Position numbers and translations under genes: made by a program
Origin: a virus
Direction: 5' to 3' (one strand)
Virus record (IMG/VR): IMGVR_UViG_3300031576_000028
Coordinates: 1 to 64,000 of that record
Length of the DNA: 64,000 bases
Notes under the pieces: generated by a model
The model's input: the letters and a program-made list of their open reading frames with translations, nothing else
The model's database searches: none
Told to the model about the DNA's origin: nothing
Part shown: piece after piece, positions 29,065 to 61,570 of the stretch
Layout of the letters: each line of letters opens with the position of its first letter
Numbering within the stretch: the first letter of the stretch is position 1

Positions 29065-29643
29065 CTACGCGCGGCGCCCCTGGATCAGGGAGAGCAGCTC
29101 CGCGCGGGAGCCGGGATCCTTCCGGAAGGCGCCCAGCATGCAGGAAGTCACGGTCGAGACGCCCTTCTTGTTGACGCCGCGGGTCGACATGCACTGGTGC
29201 TCGGCCTCGACCACGACCCCGACGGCGAGGGCCTCGAGGGACTCCTGGACCGCGTGGGCGATGTCGGAGGTCATCTTCTCCTGGATCTGCAGGCGCTTAG
29301 CGAAGGCGTCCACGACCCTGGCGAGCTTGGAGATCCCGACGACGCGCTTGTTCGGCAGGTAGCCCACGTGGACGACGCCGAGGATGGGGACGAGGTGGTG
29401 CTCGCAGTAGCTCTCGAACTGGATGTCCGTCAGCAGGACGATCTCGTCATAGCCGCTGACGTCCTCGAACGTCTTCGAGAGGATCTTTTTGGGGTCCTGT
29501 TCGTACCCGCGGAAGAACTCCTCGTAGGCCTTCACGACCCTGGATGGAGTATCGACCAGACCCTCGCGAGCCGGGTCGTCGCCGGCCCACGCGAGCAGCG
29601 TGCGCACGGCTGCCTCGGCCTCTAGCCTGGTCGGACGGGTCAC
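29065..29643 (-). CDS. folE: GTP cyclohydrolase I (FolE)
   Basis: 192 residues from GTG 29643. Full-length for the family. Zinc/catalytic residues are present: C80 and H82-H83 in [20 protein letters not shown], and C151 in HQCMSTRGV, plus [23 protein letters not shown]. Converts GTP to 7,8-dihydroneopterin triphosphate. In phages this is the first step of 7-deazaguanine synthesis, continued here by QueD and QueE 27 kb away. Unusual location: within the head genes, so expected to be expressed late with them. Confidence 0.95.
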
Positions 29644-55705: not shown

Positions 55706-56352
55706 CCTACAAGACCCCTCCCCAGACGGCCTCGTTCTCAGCCGACTACGTCGTCGAGTGGAGCGTCGAGAACGACCCGGACAGGTACAAGAGGCTGTCG
55801 ACGGTCGGCGTCCCGACGCGCGACGAGGTCACCTACGACCGGCGCGGCAAGAAGAGGACGGAGAAGATCCCGACGCACGCGGTCGTCCTCGTCGCGCTGG
55901 AGGTCCCGCTCCCCGAGCTCGAGAAGGTGACCAGCCAGCTGAAGGCGAGCCGCCTCGTGAGGCCGATGGCGCCGGTGCTCCAGTTGATGATCGAGTCGGC
56001 GAGCGGGGCCACGGAGTGGCGCGACAGGTGCGCGAAGCTGGAGAAGGAGGTCCGTGACCTCCAGCTGCTCGCCGTCTCCAAGGCCTGCATGATCGACGCG
56101 CACGAGGTCGGCATCGCCAGGGCGTGCGACCTGACCGACGACGAACACCTGTGGAGCCGGTGCGGGGTGTCGGTGTCGAACCCCGGAGCGAAGCTGCTCG
56201 GCATCAGAAACCAGGAGGAGACCAAGAAGGAGATCAACCTGATCACCGTCGGGTCGTGCAACTACATTAAGCAGGTGAGGACGGCGCTGGACGAGAAGCG
56301 GGCCGACGTCGCCGCGCGCCTGCTGGCGGCCCTGCCCGAGGGCGACTTCTAG
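55702..56352 (+). CDS. Hypothetical protein
   Basis: 216 residues, GTG 55702. FSADYVVEWSVENDPDRYKRLSTVGVPTRDEVTYDRRGKKRTEK, then PLPELEKVTSQLKASRLVRPMAPVLQLMIESASG, a helical middle and EINLITVGSCNYIKQVRTALDEK. Ends convergently with QueE, the two stops interlocked. Function not recognised. Confidence 0.5.
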   Translation: MTYKTPPQTASFSADYVVEWSVENDPDRYKRLSTVGVPTRDEVTYDRRGKKRTEKIPTHAVVLVALEVPLPELEKVTSQLKASRLVRPMAPVLQLMIESASGATEWRDRCAKLEKEVRDLQLLAVSKACMIDAHEVGIARACDLTDDEHLWSRCGVSVSNPGAKLLGIRNQEETKKEINLITVGSCNYIKQVRTALDEKRADVAARLLAALPEGDF

Positions 56353-57113
56353 CGGACCCCGATGTACTTGTGCTGCTGGAGCGACAGGCGCCAGCGCGGG
56401 TTCCGCCTGACGAAGTCGACGCACAGGTTGACGTTGGCCGAGTAGATCTGACCAGCGACGCCGGAGCCAAGCGAGTGGTTCTTGATCGACCTGCCGTGCG
56501 TCAGCGCGGTGAGCTCGACGGTGGTCGGGTCGGTCACGTCCTGCGGCTGGACGAACAGATGCCCCCAGTCGCCCTGGTCGGCGAGGCCGAGAAGCTCCCC
56601 GTCCGACCACTGGTGCTCGGGCGGGGCGGCCGGGACGCCTCCCGGGAGGACGACCTTCAACTCCTCAGCCCGCCACACCACGAGCGTCGAGCCGCGCTTG
56701 GGGGAGACGCAGACGTGGTCGATGATGTCGAGCGCCTCGCACTGGTTGGTCCCGTTGGTCTCGATCGAGGTGAACCACCCCTCGTGCTTCAGCGCCTTCG
56801 CCAGCGCGAGGTCCAGCTGGAGCGTCGGCTCGCCGCCGGAGATCACGACCATGCGGCCGAGGTCTCCGGCCCCGCCCTGCTGCCAGTTGGCCTCGAGGCG
56901 CGTGAGGACCTCGGCCAGATCCTGCGAGTCGCCTTTGGCGAAGTTCGTGTCGCACCACATGGCGCAGGCCCCAGAGCCCTTGGCTCGGTCCTCTGGGCGC
57001 CCGTTCCACTGATTGCACCCCGACAGGCGCAGGAAGACGCAGGCGCGCCCGGCCAAGAGGCCCTCGCCCTGCAGCGTCGGGAAGATCTCGACCACTCCGT
57101 ACTTGCTAGACAT
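56349..57113 (-). CDS. queE: 7-carboxy-7-deazaguanine synthase (QueE)
   Basis: 254 residues, ATG 57113. Radical SAM enzyme making 7-carboxy-7-deazaguanine (CDG) from carboxy-tetrahydropterin. Seen: IFPTLQGEGLLAGRACVFLRLSGCNQWNGRPEDRA, GACAMWCDTNF, and SAM-binding SGGEPTLQL (residues 92-100). Cluster Cys are C33, C50 and C54, i.e. C-x16-C-x3-C, where E. coli-type QueE has C-x14-C-x2-C; this is atypical but the surrounding W-N-G-R-x-x-D-R-A is conserved. Overlaps the HNH gene. Final enzyme before DpdA in this pathway if QueC is absent. Confidence 0.85.
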   Translation of the reverse strand: MSSKYGVVEIFPTLQGEGLLAGRACVFLRLSGCNQWNGRPEDRAKGSGACAMWCDTNFAKGDSQDLAEVLTRLEANWQQGGAGDLGRMVVISGGEPTLQLDLALAKALKHEGWFTSIETNGTNQCEALDIIDHVCVSPKRGSTLVVWRAEELKVVLPGGVPAAPPEHQWSDGELLGLADQGDWGHLFVQPQDVTDPTTVELTALTHGRSIKNHSLGSGVAGQIYSANVNLCVDFVRRNPRWRLSLQQHKYIGVR

Positions 57114-57606
57114 CGCGCCAGGTCCTTCCGTAGATCGCCGAGGCCATCGAGGTCTGGGAGACCCCGTACTTCTCGGCGAGGGTCTTGATCGACCAGCCGA
57201 GGGCCTTGAGGTTGTAGAGCATGCGGGCCTCGCGCACGGTCTCAATAGTTAGCTTGGACGCGTGGTGCCGCTCACCCCTGACGGGGTTGCTCCTCCGGCG
57301 GCCGCGGGCGTCCATGTCCGCGGTGTTCTCCTTGTGAGTGCCGATCACGAGGTGCCGCGGGTTCACGCAGGCGGGGACGTCGCACGTGTGGCGCACGACG
57401 AAGCCGCGCTGCCGGATGCCGGCGTGGGCGAGCTCCCAGGCGAAGCAGTGGGCGCCGACGAGCACGCCGCCGCCGCGGTTGAAGATCCCGTAGGTCGGCT
57501 CGCCGTCCTCGGTGGCGAGCGCCCCTGTCCAGATCCAGCACCCCGAGGGGTCCCTGCGGACGTGGCGCCAGAAGCGCCTCGCCGGGTCCTCAGCGCGCCG
57601 GGCCAA
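57106..57606 (-). CDS. HNH endonuclease inserted in the que cluster
   Basis: 166 residues from TTG 57606. HNH_3-type: GCWIWTGALATEDGEPTYGIFNRG, AHCFAWELAHAG, VRHTCDVPACVNPRHLVIGTHKENTADMDARGRR, plus a C-terminal HTH (LAEKYGVSQTSMASAIYGRTW). Typical homing endonuclease, overlapping queE at one end and lying three bases from queD at the other. Confidence 0.9.
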   Translation of the reverse strand: MARRAEDPARRFWRHVRRDPSGCWIWTGALATEDGEPTYGIFNRGGGVLVGAHCFAWELAHAGIRQRGFVVRHTCDVPACVNPRHLVIGTHKENTADMDARGRRRSNPVRGERHHASKLTIETVREARMLYNLKALGWSIKTLAEKYGVSQTSMASAIYGRTWRDV

Positions 57607-57609
57607 GCC

Positions 57610-58023
57610 TCACCGAGCCTTCGCCCTGCAGTTCAGCGTCTCCCACAGGACCACCTCCACGACCGTGATCCCGTAGTCGGACATCAGGTCGCGAGCCTTC
57701 GCGAGGAAGCGCATGGCGATGTTCTCGGCCGTGGGCGGCGCGGGGAGGGCCTCGCACTTCTGCCCGTCGCGGAGCAAGAAGGTGCCGAGCGGGTCGCCCT
57801 CCTGATAGAGGAAGCCGTGGTCCCAGTGCGCGTCGAGCCAGCCGCCGAGGACCTGCTTGACGACCGAGAAGTCGATCACGCGGCCGAGGTGATCGAGATC
57901 GACCGCCGAGCACTCGACCTCAAAGACGTAGCGGTGGCCGTGCGCGTTCCGGCATTTGCCCTCGTGACCCATCAGCCTGTGGCCGGCGTCGATCTCGAGG
58001 CGCTGGACGATGTTCGCGCTCAC
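57610..58023 (-). CDS. queD: 6-carboxy-5,6,7,8-tetrahydropterin synthase (QueD)
   Basis: 137 residues from GTG 58023. T-fold enzyme converting dihydroneopterin triphosphate to 6-carboxytetrahydropterin. Zinc ligands H15, H28 and H30 in AGHRLMGHEGKCRNAHGHRY, catalytic Cys24, Asp-His near residue 68-69, and PTAENIA with E100. All key residues present, family-size length. Coupled by GTGA to the ParB-like gene. Confidence 0.93.
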   Translation of the reverse strand: MSANIVQRLEIDAGHRLMGHEGKCRNAHGHRYVFEVECSAVDLDHLGRVIDFSVVKQVLGGWLDAHWDHGFLYQEGDPLGTFLLRDGQKCEALPAPPTAENIAMRFLAKARDLMSDYGITVVEVVLWETLNCRAKAR

Positions 58024-58811
58024 GACTGCACAGCCTTCTTGGCGCGCCTGGGGGCCGGCGCCGGGACCGCCGCGGCCTTGGCCGCCACCTGCGCGTCGAC
58101 CTGAGCCGCCGTCGCCTGGAGTCGCTCGACCCAGTCCCGGAGGACGGTCTCGGGGTTGCTGCTCCCCACCGCGGCCGCGCTGCGGTTGAACTCGGTCATC
58201 AGCTCGTCGTGGAGCCTGACGGGGATCGACCCCTTCGAGGTGCCGAGCTGGAAGCGGCGCTCGCCGCCGATGTTAGCGGGCTCCTGCGGGCGGGCCGGCG
58301 TGTCGGGGAGCGTCGCCTCGACCGCGCCCCAGTCGAACTGGGTGGTCGACTTGACGAGGCTGTCGAGCTCGACGGCGGTCATCGGCAGCTCCTTGGCGAG
58401 GTCCTCGATCGAGGTCGAGTCGCTGAGGTCCTTGATGAGGGCCGCGAGGAGGACGGGCTCCGGGGCGCCGCGCAGCTCGTTGGCGATGATCGTCAGCTTC
58501 TTGGCCTTGGCGTCGTCCATGACGCCGAGGTTGATGGCGGGCACCTCCGTCATGCCCTCGGCGGTCGCCGCCTTCCACCTGTGCTCCCCGTCGATGATCT
58601 CGTAGAGGTAGAGGTTGCTAGGGTCGTTCACGATCACCCGAACCTTGATGGGCTCCACGAACCCGTAGGTGCGGATCGAGAGGCGCTCCTTCTCGAACAT
58701 CGCCTCGGACATTTTATTGGGGTTCCATGGATTTTTTCTGCATCGGCTGAGATCGACCATCTCGGCCTTGAGACCCTTGCCCCAGCTCAGCGTCTGCTTC
58801 TTCTCGCTCAT
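58020..58811 (-). CDS. ParB-like nuclease-domain protein (DNA-modification cluster)
   Basis: 263 residues, ATG 58811. ParB N-terminal fold: CRKNPWNPNKMSEAMFEKERLSIRTYGFVEPIKVRVIV, then YEIIDGEHRWKAATAEGMTEVPAINL. Helical middle and an Ala/Pro/Lys-rich C-terminus (AAAVPAPAPRRAKKAVQS). ParB-like proteins are repeatedly found beside dpdA in phages and may help select or access DNA sites. No ParA partner seen. Confidence 0.8.
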   Translation of the reverse strand: MSEKKQTLSWGKGLKAEMVDLSRCRKNPWNPNKMSEAMFEKERLSIRTYGFVEPIKVRVIVNDPSNLYLYEIIDGEHRWKAATAEGMTEVPAINLGVMDDAKAKKLTIIANELRGAPEPVLLAALIKDLSDSTSIEDLAKELPMTAVELDSLVKSTTQFDWGAVEATLPDTPARPQEPANIGGERRFQLGTSKGSIPVRLHDELMTEFNRSAAAVGSSNPETVLRDWVERLQATAAQVDAQVAAKAAAVPAPAPRRAKKAVQS

Positions 58812-59737
58812 CTTGGCATCCTCGGGTTGGCTATCGCGGCGTCCCAGTCTACACCGCGGGCGCGCCAGATGTCAGTCACGTGCCTCTCGGCCTCGATCCA
58901 GGCCCTGGCAGAGGCTACCAGGCAGTCAACGCGCAGGCGGGACGTGGTCCCATTGCGAGGCATGATCCCGTACCACGACGGGCGCAGCATGGACTCACCG
59001 AGGCCCTCGCCCTGGTGGCGGATGTTCACGACGCCGCCCGCGCGGGTACTCATGACGTAGCTGCCCTGGGAGGTCGGCGTGATCCACGAGCTCGAGTCCA
59101 CGGAGTAGAACGGCCACTTCTGGATCGCCTCCTGCGAGGTCATCCGGAACGCGTGCACGCGCACGCCTCGGGCGTAGGCCTCCTTGAGGAAGCGGGTATA
59201 GTCGAGCGGGTCGCGGTTGAGCTGGTTGCCCTCGATCGCCACGTAGTTGGAGCGCCCGGGCCTGCGGCACTCCTCCAGCAGCTCGATCCAGTACGCCCAG
59301 TCCTGGTCGCTGTGCCAGACGTTGACGAGGCCGGCGCCGAGGCCGGCCCCGATGATCTTGTCGCGCTGCCTGTGCACCCAGTCGTAGGACGCCATCATCG
59401 CGATGTCGAGTTCGATCCACAGGTCGGCGAGGCCGGCCGTGCGGAGCCACCTGAGCCACTCGATGTAGCGCGCGAGGAACGCGTCGTAGTCGACGTCCTC
59501 GGCGTTGGCGCTGCCCGACGTCGACACGAGGTCGCTGACGCTCGTGCGCAGCGTGAAGGCCCCCGAGTCGATCAGCCTCAGGCCGGCCTGACGCAGGCAC
59601 TGGAGCCACACGTCGCGGTAAGTCTTGCGGAGGTACCCCGCGTAGAAGAAGGACGTGAGGACGTGCTGGGCCCCGGCGTGGACCGCGGCACTCGCGTGCT
59701 CCCGAGAAGACTCGATGGCTGCGAGGAAGATCTTCAT
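58808..59737 (-). CDS. dpdA: DpdA-family DNA guanine transglycosylase
   Basis: 309 residues, ATG 59737 (ATGA). TGT-superfamily TIM-barrel with LRLIDSGAFTLRT (D57, proposed nucleophile-type Asp), LWIELDIAMM (D111), HAFRMTSQEAIQKWPFYSVDSSSW (D214). Exchanges guanine for a 7-deazaguanine base in DNA; the D-S-G-A-F motif and short length fit phage DpdA rather than tRNA enzymes. Which subfamily (DpdA1-DpdA4) is not decided here. Coupled to the ParB-like gene. Confidence 0.85.
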   Translation of the reverse strand: MKIFLAAIESSREHASAAVHAGAQHVLTSFFYAGYLRKTYRDVWLQCLRQAGLRLIDSGAFTLRTSVSDLVSTSGSANAEDVDYDAFLARYIEWLRWLRTAGLADLWIELDIAMMASYDWVHRQRDKIIGAGLGAGLVNVWHSDQDWAYWIELLEECRRPGRSNYVAIEGNQLNRDPLDYTRFLKEAYARGVRVHAFRMTSQEAIQKWPFYSVDSSSWITPTSQGSYVMSTRAGGVVNIRHQGEGLGESMLRPSWYGIMPRNGTTSRLRVDCLVASARAWIEAERHVTDIWRARGVDWDAAIANPRMPR

Positions 59738-60210
59738 CGGCCGCGGTCCATCTTGTAGTCGGGCGGAGTCGATCGTACGCCGTCGCGGACAGCCCAGGTG
59801 ACCAGCGAGTACGGCACACCAACCGTGACCTGGTCGTTGGCGCGCAGCTTCTCCATCCACGGAGCGCGCATGTTGGCTCGCACCATCAAGGTGGCTCGCC
59901 AGAGGATCGGCCACGTGAGGCGGTCATCGACGTCGTCCTCGTTGACCGCGATCGTCAGGTGCCCCTTGGTGCGCGGAAGGACGTGCTGCTGGACCCAGGC
60001 CCAGTCGGTGAAGTTCTCAGTTAGGAACACGTGTCGGACGCGACTCGTGGACAGGCGCCGCTGCAGCTCCGCGAGGTCGCCTGGGTCCTGCGGCACCGAG
60101 TCGATGAACGCGGTCGGCACTCGGTGCCGGGCCAGCGCGCCCTCGACCTCTAGGCCGTACCAGATCGCCGTTCGACCGACGCCGACGTCCGGACCAGCTG
60201 GGTGGGTCAC
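59734..60210 (-). CDS. Unknown protein between dpdA and glycosyltransferase
   Basis: 158 residues from GTG 60210 (GTGA at both ends). RTAIWYGLEVEGALARHRVPTAFIDSVPQDPGDLAELQRRLSTSRVRHVFLTENFTDWAWVQQHVLPRTKGHLTIAV..., Rossmann-like alternation of helices and strands with several conserved-looking Trp. No family recognised. Position suggests a role in base synthesis, transfer or tailoring. Confidence 0.55.
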   Translation of the reverse strand: MTHPAGPDVGVGRTAIWYGLEVEGALARHRVPTAFIDSVPQDPGDLAELQRRLSTSRVRHVFLTENFTDWAWVQQHVLPRTKGHLTIAVNEDDVDDRLTWPILWRATLMVRANMRAPWMEKLRANDQVTVGVPYSLVTWAVRDGVRSTPPDYKMDRGR

Positions 60211-61208
60211 TGGACTCCCAGCAGGCGGGCGATCCTGGGGATGGCGTAGTGCCCGGGCGCCGGGTCGAGGTGGTAGGGCTCCGACGCGTCTAGCGCGCGC
60301 CTGATCAGGAACGCCGCGCCCGCGATGGAGGAGTACTGGTGCTCGCGCTCGTAGAGCTCGAGGTACGAGAGGCGGGCGGGGACGACCGGGCGGCACCCGA
60401 GCGAGGCAGCCTCGAGCATCGCGATCCCCCAGGTCTCCTGCCGCGCCGACGAGAAGGCCACGCGGCTGTCGCCGAGGAGCGCGTAGTACTCCTGCTTGGT
60501 CTGGAAGCAGTCCTTGGTGCGCAGCCACTCGACCTGGTCGTCGGGGTAGGCGTCGGCGTAGGCCGACATCACATCCGCGAACTCCCACGGCGCCTTCTCC
60601 GGCGCGAGCCTGTGCGGGAACACGACCCGCCGCGGCCGGTCGTGCCAGGGCCTCGAGTACGACGACCACTCCTCGTCGAGGAGCGGGAAGCCCGTCACGT
60701 GGATCTTCGCTCGCGAGCAGCCGGCCCCCACAAGCATATCGCAGTGTAATTCCGTCGCCACGGCCACAACGTCGTAGATCTCGAACAGGGCCCTCTCGAA
60801 GCTCGGCGCCCAGCGACGCACTAGATCGGAGCGCCCCAGGAGGTCGTGCGGGTCGTAGGAGCCGGCATGGAAGAGGCCCGCGATCTTGAACGACACGCCA
60901 CCGAGGTCGCGCATGTACGCGAGCTGGACAGCGGCCGGACTCCACGCGTCGAGGCAGAGGACCCAGTCGCCGTCGCGGACTGAGCCTCCCCTCAGCTGGT
61001 GGCAGAACGCCGACAGCTGCGTCGACTTCCACAGGTTGGTGTCGACGACGTCGAGGAACTCGCCCTGGGTGATCTTCTCCTCCGCGTGGACACCAACCAC
61101 GGTCACGTACTCCGCGCCAAGCCTGGCGAGGGTGTCCGGGAACCAGCGCATCCACTGAGCGCTGTACCTTTCTTCCAATGGCTCGATAGGCATGATCCAG
61201 ATGGTCAT
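60207..61208 (-). CDS. Glycosyltransferase, GT4/GT-B-like
   Basis: 333 residues, ATG 61208. GT-B-type: N-terminal Rossmann region, then KIHVTGFPLLDEEW, RRVVFPHRLAPEKAPWEFADVMSAYADAYPDDQVEWLR, and VAFSSARQETWGIAMLEAASLGCRPVVPARLSYLELY (the E-x7-E-type nucleotide-sugar site). Transfers a sugar from NDP-sugar to an acceptor. Coupled on both sides with the 7-deazaguanine cluster, so modified DNA base is a candidate acceptor (inference). Confidence 0.7.
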   Translation of the reverse strand: MTIWIMPIEPLEERYSAQWMRWFPDTLARLGAEYVTVVGVHAEEKITQGEFLDVVDTNLWKSTQLSAFCHQLRGGSVRDGDWVLCLDAWSPAAVQLAYMRDLGGVSFKIAGLFHAGSYDPHDLLGRSDLVRRWAPSFERALFEIYDVVAVATELHCDMLVGAGCSRAKIHVTGFPLLDEEWSSYSRPWHDRPRRVVFPHRLAPEKAPWEFADVMSAYADAYPDDQVEWLRTKDCFQTKQEYYALLGDSRVAFSSARQETWGIAMLEAASLGCRPVVPARLSYLELYEREHQYSSIAGAAFLIRRALDASEPYHLDPAPGHYAIPRIARLLGVQ

Positions 61209-61570
61209 CGGCTAGTCTCCGCCAGCTCCACCCGCGACCCGTTCTCGCCGTCCTCCCAGGCCTCGACCCAGGACACGACGTAGCCCTGGGAGCCTAGGTG
61301 GGAGGCGAGCTCTCTGGCGATCATCTCGCAACTGCGGGAACCGAAGTCGTGGCCGTCGTCACGGAACGATCTTCTAACGTCGTTCTGTAGGGTATGGAAC
61401 TCGACCTCGCGGTTGGAGTGGCTGACCACCACCGACGCGATGATCAGGAACATGTGTCGGTGCCGGTGCGAGAGGTACGAGACCTCTGGTGGCGCGCCGG
61501 GCCAGTAGTGGAACCCCGGCACTCTGTGGGTGACCATCACGGTAGTCTTCTCGGTCCTGATCTCGTTCAT
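61205..61570 (-). CDS. QueD-like T-fold protein
   Basis: 121 residues, ATG 61570 with CGGAG. VPGFHYWPGAPPEVSYLSHRHRHMFLIIASVVVSHSNREVEF keeps the His positions of QueD (F-H ... H-R-H) but has no Cys in between. FGSRSCEMIARELASHLGSQ and VEAWEDGENGSRVE correspond to QueD's PTAEN and final Glu regions. Likely a T-fold paralogue with changed or lost activity. Neighbours glycosyltransferase and SbcC-like genes. Confidence 0.55.
   Translation of the reverse strand: MNEIRTEKTTVMVTHRVPGFHYWPGAPPEVSYLSHRHRHMFLIIASVVVSHSNREVEFHTLQNDVRRSFRDDGHDFGSRSCEMIARELASHLGSQGYVVSWVEAWEDGENGSRVELAETSR

Follow-up and report, generated by a model that had tools for sequence, protein, structure and literature searches.

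A putative 7-deazaguanine DNA modification operon without queC encodes a QueD paralogue and a predicted glycosyltransferase in an uncultured phage

Here, we describe a putative 7-deazaguanine DNA modification operon in an uncultured phage represented by the 78,895-base IMG/VR record IMGVR_UViG_3300031576_000028. The sequence analyzed, which we call the window, consisted of bases 1 to 64000 of that record. Family profiles and retained active-site residues supported the assignment of the operon to the DpdA type, and no QueC was found. The operon also encoded U121, a predicted QueD paralogue, and a putative glycosyltransferase (GT); U121 (phrog_17812) and GT relatives were largely unannotated, yet the loci that we examined almost always held 7-deazaguanine genes. 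These data led us to a tentative proposal, which we place a little below an even chance of being correct: a widespread, QueC-free phage branch in which U121 processes 7-carboxy-7-deazaguanine (CDG) and a dedicated GT makes a sugar-bearing 7-deazaguanine in DNA.

Results

DpdA and precursor genes

The window DpdA, a member of the tRNA-guanine transglycosylase (TGT) superfamily, retained D57 (DSGA), H195, and D214 (VDSSSW), which aligned with the CAjan-type motifs, and a profile of the window DpdA clade also picked up the DpdA proteins of phages CAjan, Bipper, and Cellulophaga phiSM. CAjan DpdA was shown experimentally to be essential, and its loss abolishes DNA modification (PMC6884629). A PDB search with the window DpdA sequence alone returned nothing useful. 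In the gut phage MT835482 (L004:7947-10145), DpdA appeared, as read from the open reading frame (ORF), to be interrupted by an intein inserted at the catalytic SDSS/TTW motif.

The phage encoded its own set of precursor genes (folE, queD, and queE; Table 1). The FolE was the only one in the record and was located away from the operon, amid structural genes. The QueE also matched the solved QueE structure 4njg (E 5e-39). QueE proteins of the window clade (the window, L002, L015, L017, and L121) had a Cx16Cx3C motif, versus Cx14CxxC in 4njg. When the entire 78,895-base record, which may be incomplete, was searched with the QueC profile PF06508, there was no match; thus, the QueC or Gat-QueC that marks the dPreQ0/dG+ subtype was missing. 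A search of the record for QueF, which marks the dPreQ1 subtype, returned a single match below the cut-off, and that match was FolE itself.

A previous reading of this DNA, which was made from the sequence alone, had called a DpdA-type modification cluster with a distant FolE and no QueC, and had named the loss of the DpdA active-site Asp as grounds for rejecting it. The profile shared with CAjan and the retained residues (at the sequence level, both Asp and the His were kept) supported the first call, the family profile identified FolE at the position given, and the absence of QueC held for the whole record.

U121 is predicted to have a QueD-like fold

The AlphaFold model of U121 had a pLDDT of 90, and its top PDB match was Escherichia coli QueD (TM 0.75, prob 1.00). 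In addition, a profile-profile comparison of U121 with QueD yielded an E of 2.8e-6. It was these two comparisons that linked the proteins; plain BLASTP failed to do so, and a PDB search with the U121 sequence alone returned nothing useful. In the L005 record, the sole match to the U121 profile fell on the queD gene of that phage. Zinc histidines H21, H37, and H39 of the predicted T-fold were invariant, and two conserved glutamates were kept, but the aligned U121 sequences had nothing equivalent to the catalytic Cys and the Asp-His of QueD. Because the operon holds QueD itself too, U121 is an extra QueD paralogue.

In 2023, Cui et al. reportedly described dDG (2'-deoxy-7-deazaguanine), dCDG, and the CDG decarboxylase DpdL in phages; that work is not known to include a glycosyltransferase. 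U121 is a candidate for DpdL, and hence it may already have been described as such. The phages with DpdL are said to use CDG independently of QueC, as we propose here.

U121 and the GT accompany 7-deazaguanine genes, and U121 occurs where QueC is absent

The U121 and GT families each had more than 580 relatives in IMG/VR, and we examined 80 loci per seed. All 80 of the GT-seeded loci contained 7-deazaguanine genes (here, one or more of FolE, QueD, QueE, or a DpdA-type gene), 77/80 contained U121, and the only one with QueC (1/80) did not contain U121. Among the U121-seeded loci, 77/80 contained 7-deazaguanine genes, none (0/80) contained QueC, and 37/80 contained the GT. In contrast, 7-deazaguanine genes were present in 3/80 control loci seeded with UvsX, a replication gene of phage ACP17, and one of the three was ACP17 itself. 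The association was judged from the raw counts and the UvsX control; the loci of our Fisher tests were partly selected by U121 or the GT.

Whole-record searches yielded similar results. No QueC above the cut-off was detected in the U121 phages PA5oct, ACP17, Phosso, BUCT-ZZ01, X1, MA9V-3, RHph_I1_18, Ahp1, and Bakedbeans, and none was detected in 21 further records (up to 328 kb) that had U121 or the GT. Two otherwise similar loci were telling: L007 had the order FolE-U121-GT-rSAM-DpdA-ParB (rSAM, radical SAM) and no QueC, whereas L048 had the order FolE-GT-rSAM-DpdA-QueC-ParB and no U121 anywhere in its 86.5-kb record. That is, the two loci swap U121 for QueC.

The putative glycosyltransferase and U158

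A profile built from 14 GT sequences had weak matches to PDB proteins of GT group 1, with 5i45 as the best (E 0.0012). These matches and the subthreshold Pfam match (Table 1) were individually weak but consistent with a GT-B enzyme. Elsewhere, the GT had sugar-related neighbors: in L021 an NTP transferase, and in Synechococcus phage BUCT-ZZ01 another glycosyltransferase. In L021 (4958-9171), genes for the NTP transferase and a CDP-glycerol glycerophosphotransferase-like protein flanked the GT, hinting at other decorations. The modules of L002, L007, L015, and L017 contained radical SAM genes; that of L015 also contained an AAA_28 gene. The most distant GT relatives (Xanthomonas PhiXhv-12, 26% identity) lay in an aminosugar locus, and no 7-deazaguanine gene was annotated in its vicinity. 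The AlphaFold model of U158 was poor (pLDDT 62) and had no credible fold match.

Two other roles for the GT were considered and set aside. DNA glucosylation of the T4 type also involves a phage glycosyltransferase that decorates a modified base, but the T4 enzymes target 5-hydroxymethylcytosine (5hmC). No gene of the thymidylate-synthase/dCMP-hydroxymethylase family, which might supply a 5hmC or 5-hydroxymethyluracil (5hmU) acceptor, was found in the record, and only 2/13 related records had one. A general phage sugar-transferase was disfavored by the co-occurrence counts, the aminosugar locus of the PhiXhv-12 relatives notwithstanding.

Operon layout and neighboring genes

The features of the operon, together with FolE, are listed in Table 1.

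Table 1. Genes of the putative modification operon and the distant folE gene
Feature	Position	Strand	Evidence or remarks
U121, QueD-like T-fold protein, 121 amino acids (aa)	61205..61570	-	phrog_17812 E 9e-20 (annotated "unknown function")
GT-B/GT4-like glycosyltransferase (putative), 333 aa	60207..61208	-	Pfam Glycos_transf_1 E 0.013, below cut-off
U158, 158 aa, same operon	59734..60210	-	Homologues in L015-L020 and adjoining the GT in Xanthomonas phage X1
DpdA, DNA-guanine transglycosylase (TGT superfamily), 309 aa	58808..59737	-	phrog_887 E 3e-21
ParB-like (ParB_N) protein adjoining DpdA	58020..58811	-	PF02195 E 8e-12
QueD, 6-carboxytetrahydropterin synthase	57610..58023	-	PF01242 E 5e-27; phrog_2389 E 4e-35
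HNH endonuclease ORF between queD and queE	57106..57606	-	HNH_3 E 3e-7; phrog_1872 E 4e-30
QueE, 7-carboxy-7-deazaguanine synthase (radical SAM)	56349..57113	-	NCBIfam TIGR04508 E 1.5e-49, below its cut-off
FolE, GTP cyclohydrolase I	29065..29643	-	PF01227 E 2e-73

The sequence-only reading had placed QueE, QueD, a ParB-like protein, and DpdA in an adjacent and coupled cluster. Family profiles bore out all four calls, and the DpdA and ParB-like genes overlapped by 4 bases, as did the ParB-like and QueD genes. However, QueD and QueE were not adjacent because the HNH ORF intervened. This ORF was in the same position in L002 and L015 but was missing from it in L017, and it probably encodes a mobile nuclease outside the pathway. 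The cluster also extended further than had been claimed. A same-strand run containing U158, the GT, and U121 (59734-61570) continued upstream, with each gene overlapping the next by 4 bases, and in other viruses these genes were associated with 7-deazaguanine genes. An SbcC-like gene was located 20 bases beyond U121.

A ParB-like gene was also found beside DpdA in L002, L003, L005-L008, L015-L020, and L038. This neighborhood, and the parallel with bacterial DpdB, suggested that the ParB-like protein may be a DpdA helper.

Two further observations concerned inteins elsewhere in the record. A dCTP deaminase was split by an intein that carried a homing-endonuclease domain (record 69066-70679, minus strand; L001:9066-10679), and the translation of a family A DNA polymerase ORF (record 71126-74656, minus strand) suggested a further intein (CFHPDTEVM ... 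VPLITNQ).

Comparison with known systems

The window phage resembled phages CAjan, 9g, and Rosebush in having FolE, QueD, and QueE, and its DpdA had the active-site residues of CAjan DpdA. Those phages have genes for QueC or Gat-QueC, and their DNA contains dPreQ0 or dG+ (Hutinet 2019; PMC6884629), whereas the operon described here lacked QueC and contained U121, the GT, and U158. Mycobacterium phage Bipper likewise has DpdA, QueD, QueE, and FolE but no QueC. Bipper differed in having no U121, which makes it a different arrangement, and no glycosyltransferase among its annotated neighbors.

The closest parallels were Acidovorax phage ACP17, Pseudomonas phage PA5oct, Sinorhizobium phage Phosso, Synechococcus phage BUCT-ZZ01, and Xanthomonas phage X1, all of which had U121 and the GT (mostly annotated as hypothetical), along with FolE and/or QueE; QueD was present in ACP17 and BUCT-ZZ01. 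As noted above, QueC was below the cut-off or absent in all five. Their TGT-like DpdA candidates belonged to other families (phrog_10773 or the PA5oct gp168 type), and none was seen near the GT in Phosso. No report of a glycosylated 7-deazaguanine in DNA, or of a 7-deazaguanine DNA pathway that includes a glycosyltransferase, was found in the literature titles, abstracts, and passages that we searched.

Discussion

FolE, QueD, and QueE form the known route from GTP to CDG, and we propose that they make CDG in this phage. From CDG onward, we infer the chemistry and its protective role. U121 would act on CDG at the step usually carried out by QueC, a placement suggested by the pattern in which U121 replaces QueC; the reaction might be a decarboxylation, as for DpdL, or another change to the C7 carboxylate. 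DpdA, with help from the ParB-like protein, would then swap part of the guanine in DNA for the U121 product. Because of its co-occurrence with the pathway, the GT-B-like glycosyltransferase, perhaps with U158, is proposed to add a sugar to the inserted base, and the sugar-bearing base would protect the phage DNA against restriction. Taken as a whole, we consider this series of steps to be as apt to prove right as wrong.

Several points weigh against the proposal. Decarboxylation by U121 would leave nothing at C7 to which a sugar could be joined by the usual O- or N-glycosyl bond; therefore, U121 would have to carry out another reaction, or the sugar would have to be attached otherwise. The matches behind the GT assignment are individually weak (Glycos_transf_1, E 0.013; 5i45, E 0.0012), and the U121 branch does not require the GT, as only 37/80 U121 loci show it. 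Vibrio phage D479 is an exception to the replacement pattern, as it carries U121 plus a QueC-family gene. Finally, many of the counted loci are truncated or come from related contigs, so that the counts do not represent independent events.

The fact that over half of the U121 loci show no GT would also fit a simpler pathway, in which U121 is DpdL, DpdA inserts 7-deazaguanine, and the resulting base is 2'-deoxy-7-deazaguanine, with the GT being unrelated or acting on a minor fraction. Such a pathway would account for a U121 that sits at the QueC step, occurs without QueC, and has retained both the fold and the conserved glutamates of an enzyme that binds pterin. However, an unrelated GT is hard to square with the 7-deazaguanine genes found in every GT-seeded locus. 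We view this explanation as unlikely, although it deserves serious attention.

The sequence-only reading had expected either CDG itself in the DNA (dCDG) or preQ0 supplied by the host. Insertion of CDG would follow simply from the presence of FolE, QueD, QueE, and DpdA and the absence of QueC, and there is a precedent in Bipper, for which Hutinet et al. considered that CDG might be carried since QueC alone was missing (PMC6884629). It would leave U121 and the GT unexplained even though both track the pathway, and Bipper is not a close parallel; thus, we regard dCDG as improbable. Host supply of preQ0, which has been proposed for phages that have only DpdA (PMC6884629), or of QueC would give dPreQ0. 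A phage with its own CDG and a protein that replaces QueC would gain little from it, and QueC is absent from U121 phages of very different hosts, so we give this explanation very little credence. Both expectations are too simple, given that nearly all of the relatives examined have U121 in the absence of QueC and that GT-seeded loci always have 7-deazaguanine genes. Neither plain dCDG nor dPreQ0 is likely to be the final base.

We considered whether the pathway might modify tRNA rather than DNA, producing a queuosine-like base that is glycosylated as in animals. FolE, QueD, and QueE feed tRNA queuosine synthesis too, and glycosylated queuosine is known from animal tRNA. Nevertheless, QueF was absent from the record, and the window DpdA grouped with that of CAjan, without which DNA modification does not occur (PMC6884629); a tRNA target therefore seems highly improbable.

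If the proposed branch with U121 and a dedicated GT is real, then many environmental viruses, as well as the cultured phages PA5oct, ACP17, and BUCT-ZZ01, contain a hypermodified guanine. Their DNA would have an altered resistance to restriction and possibly an altered ease of sequencing. Since the module is present in cultured phages, the proposal is directly testable.

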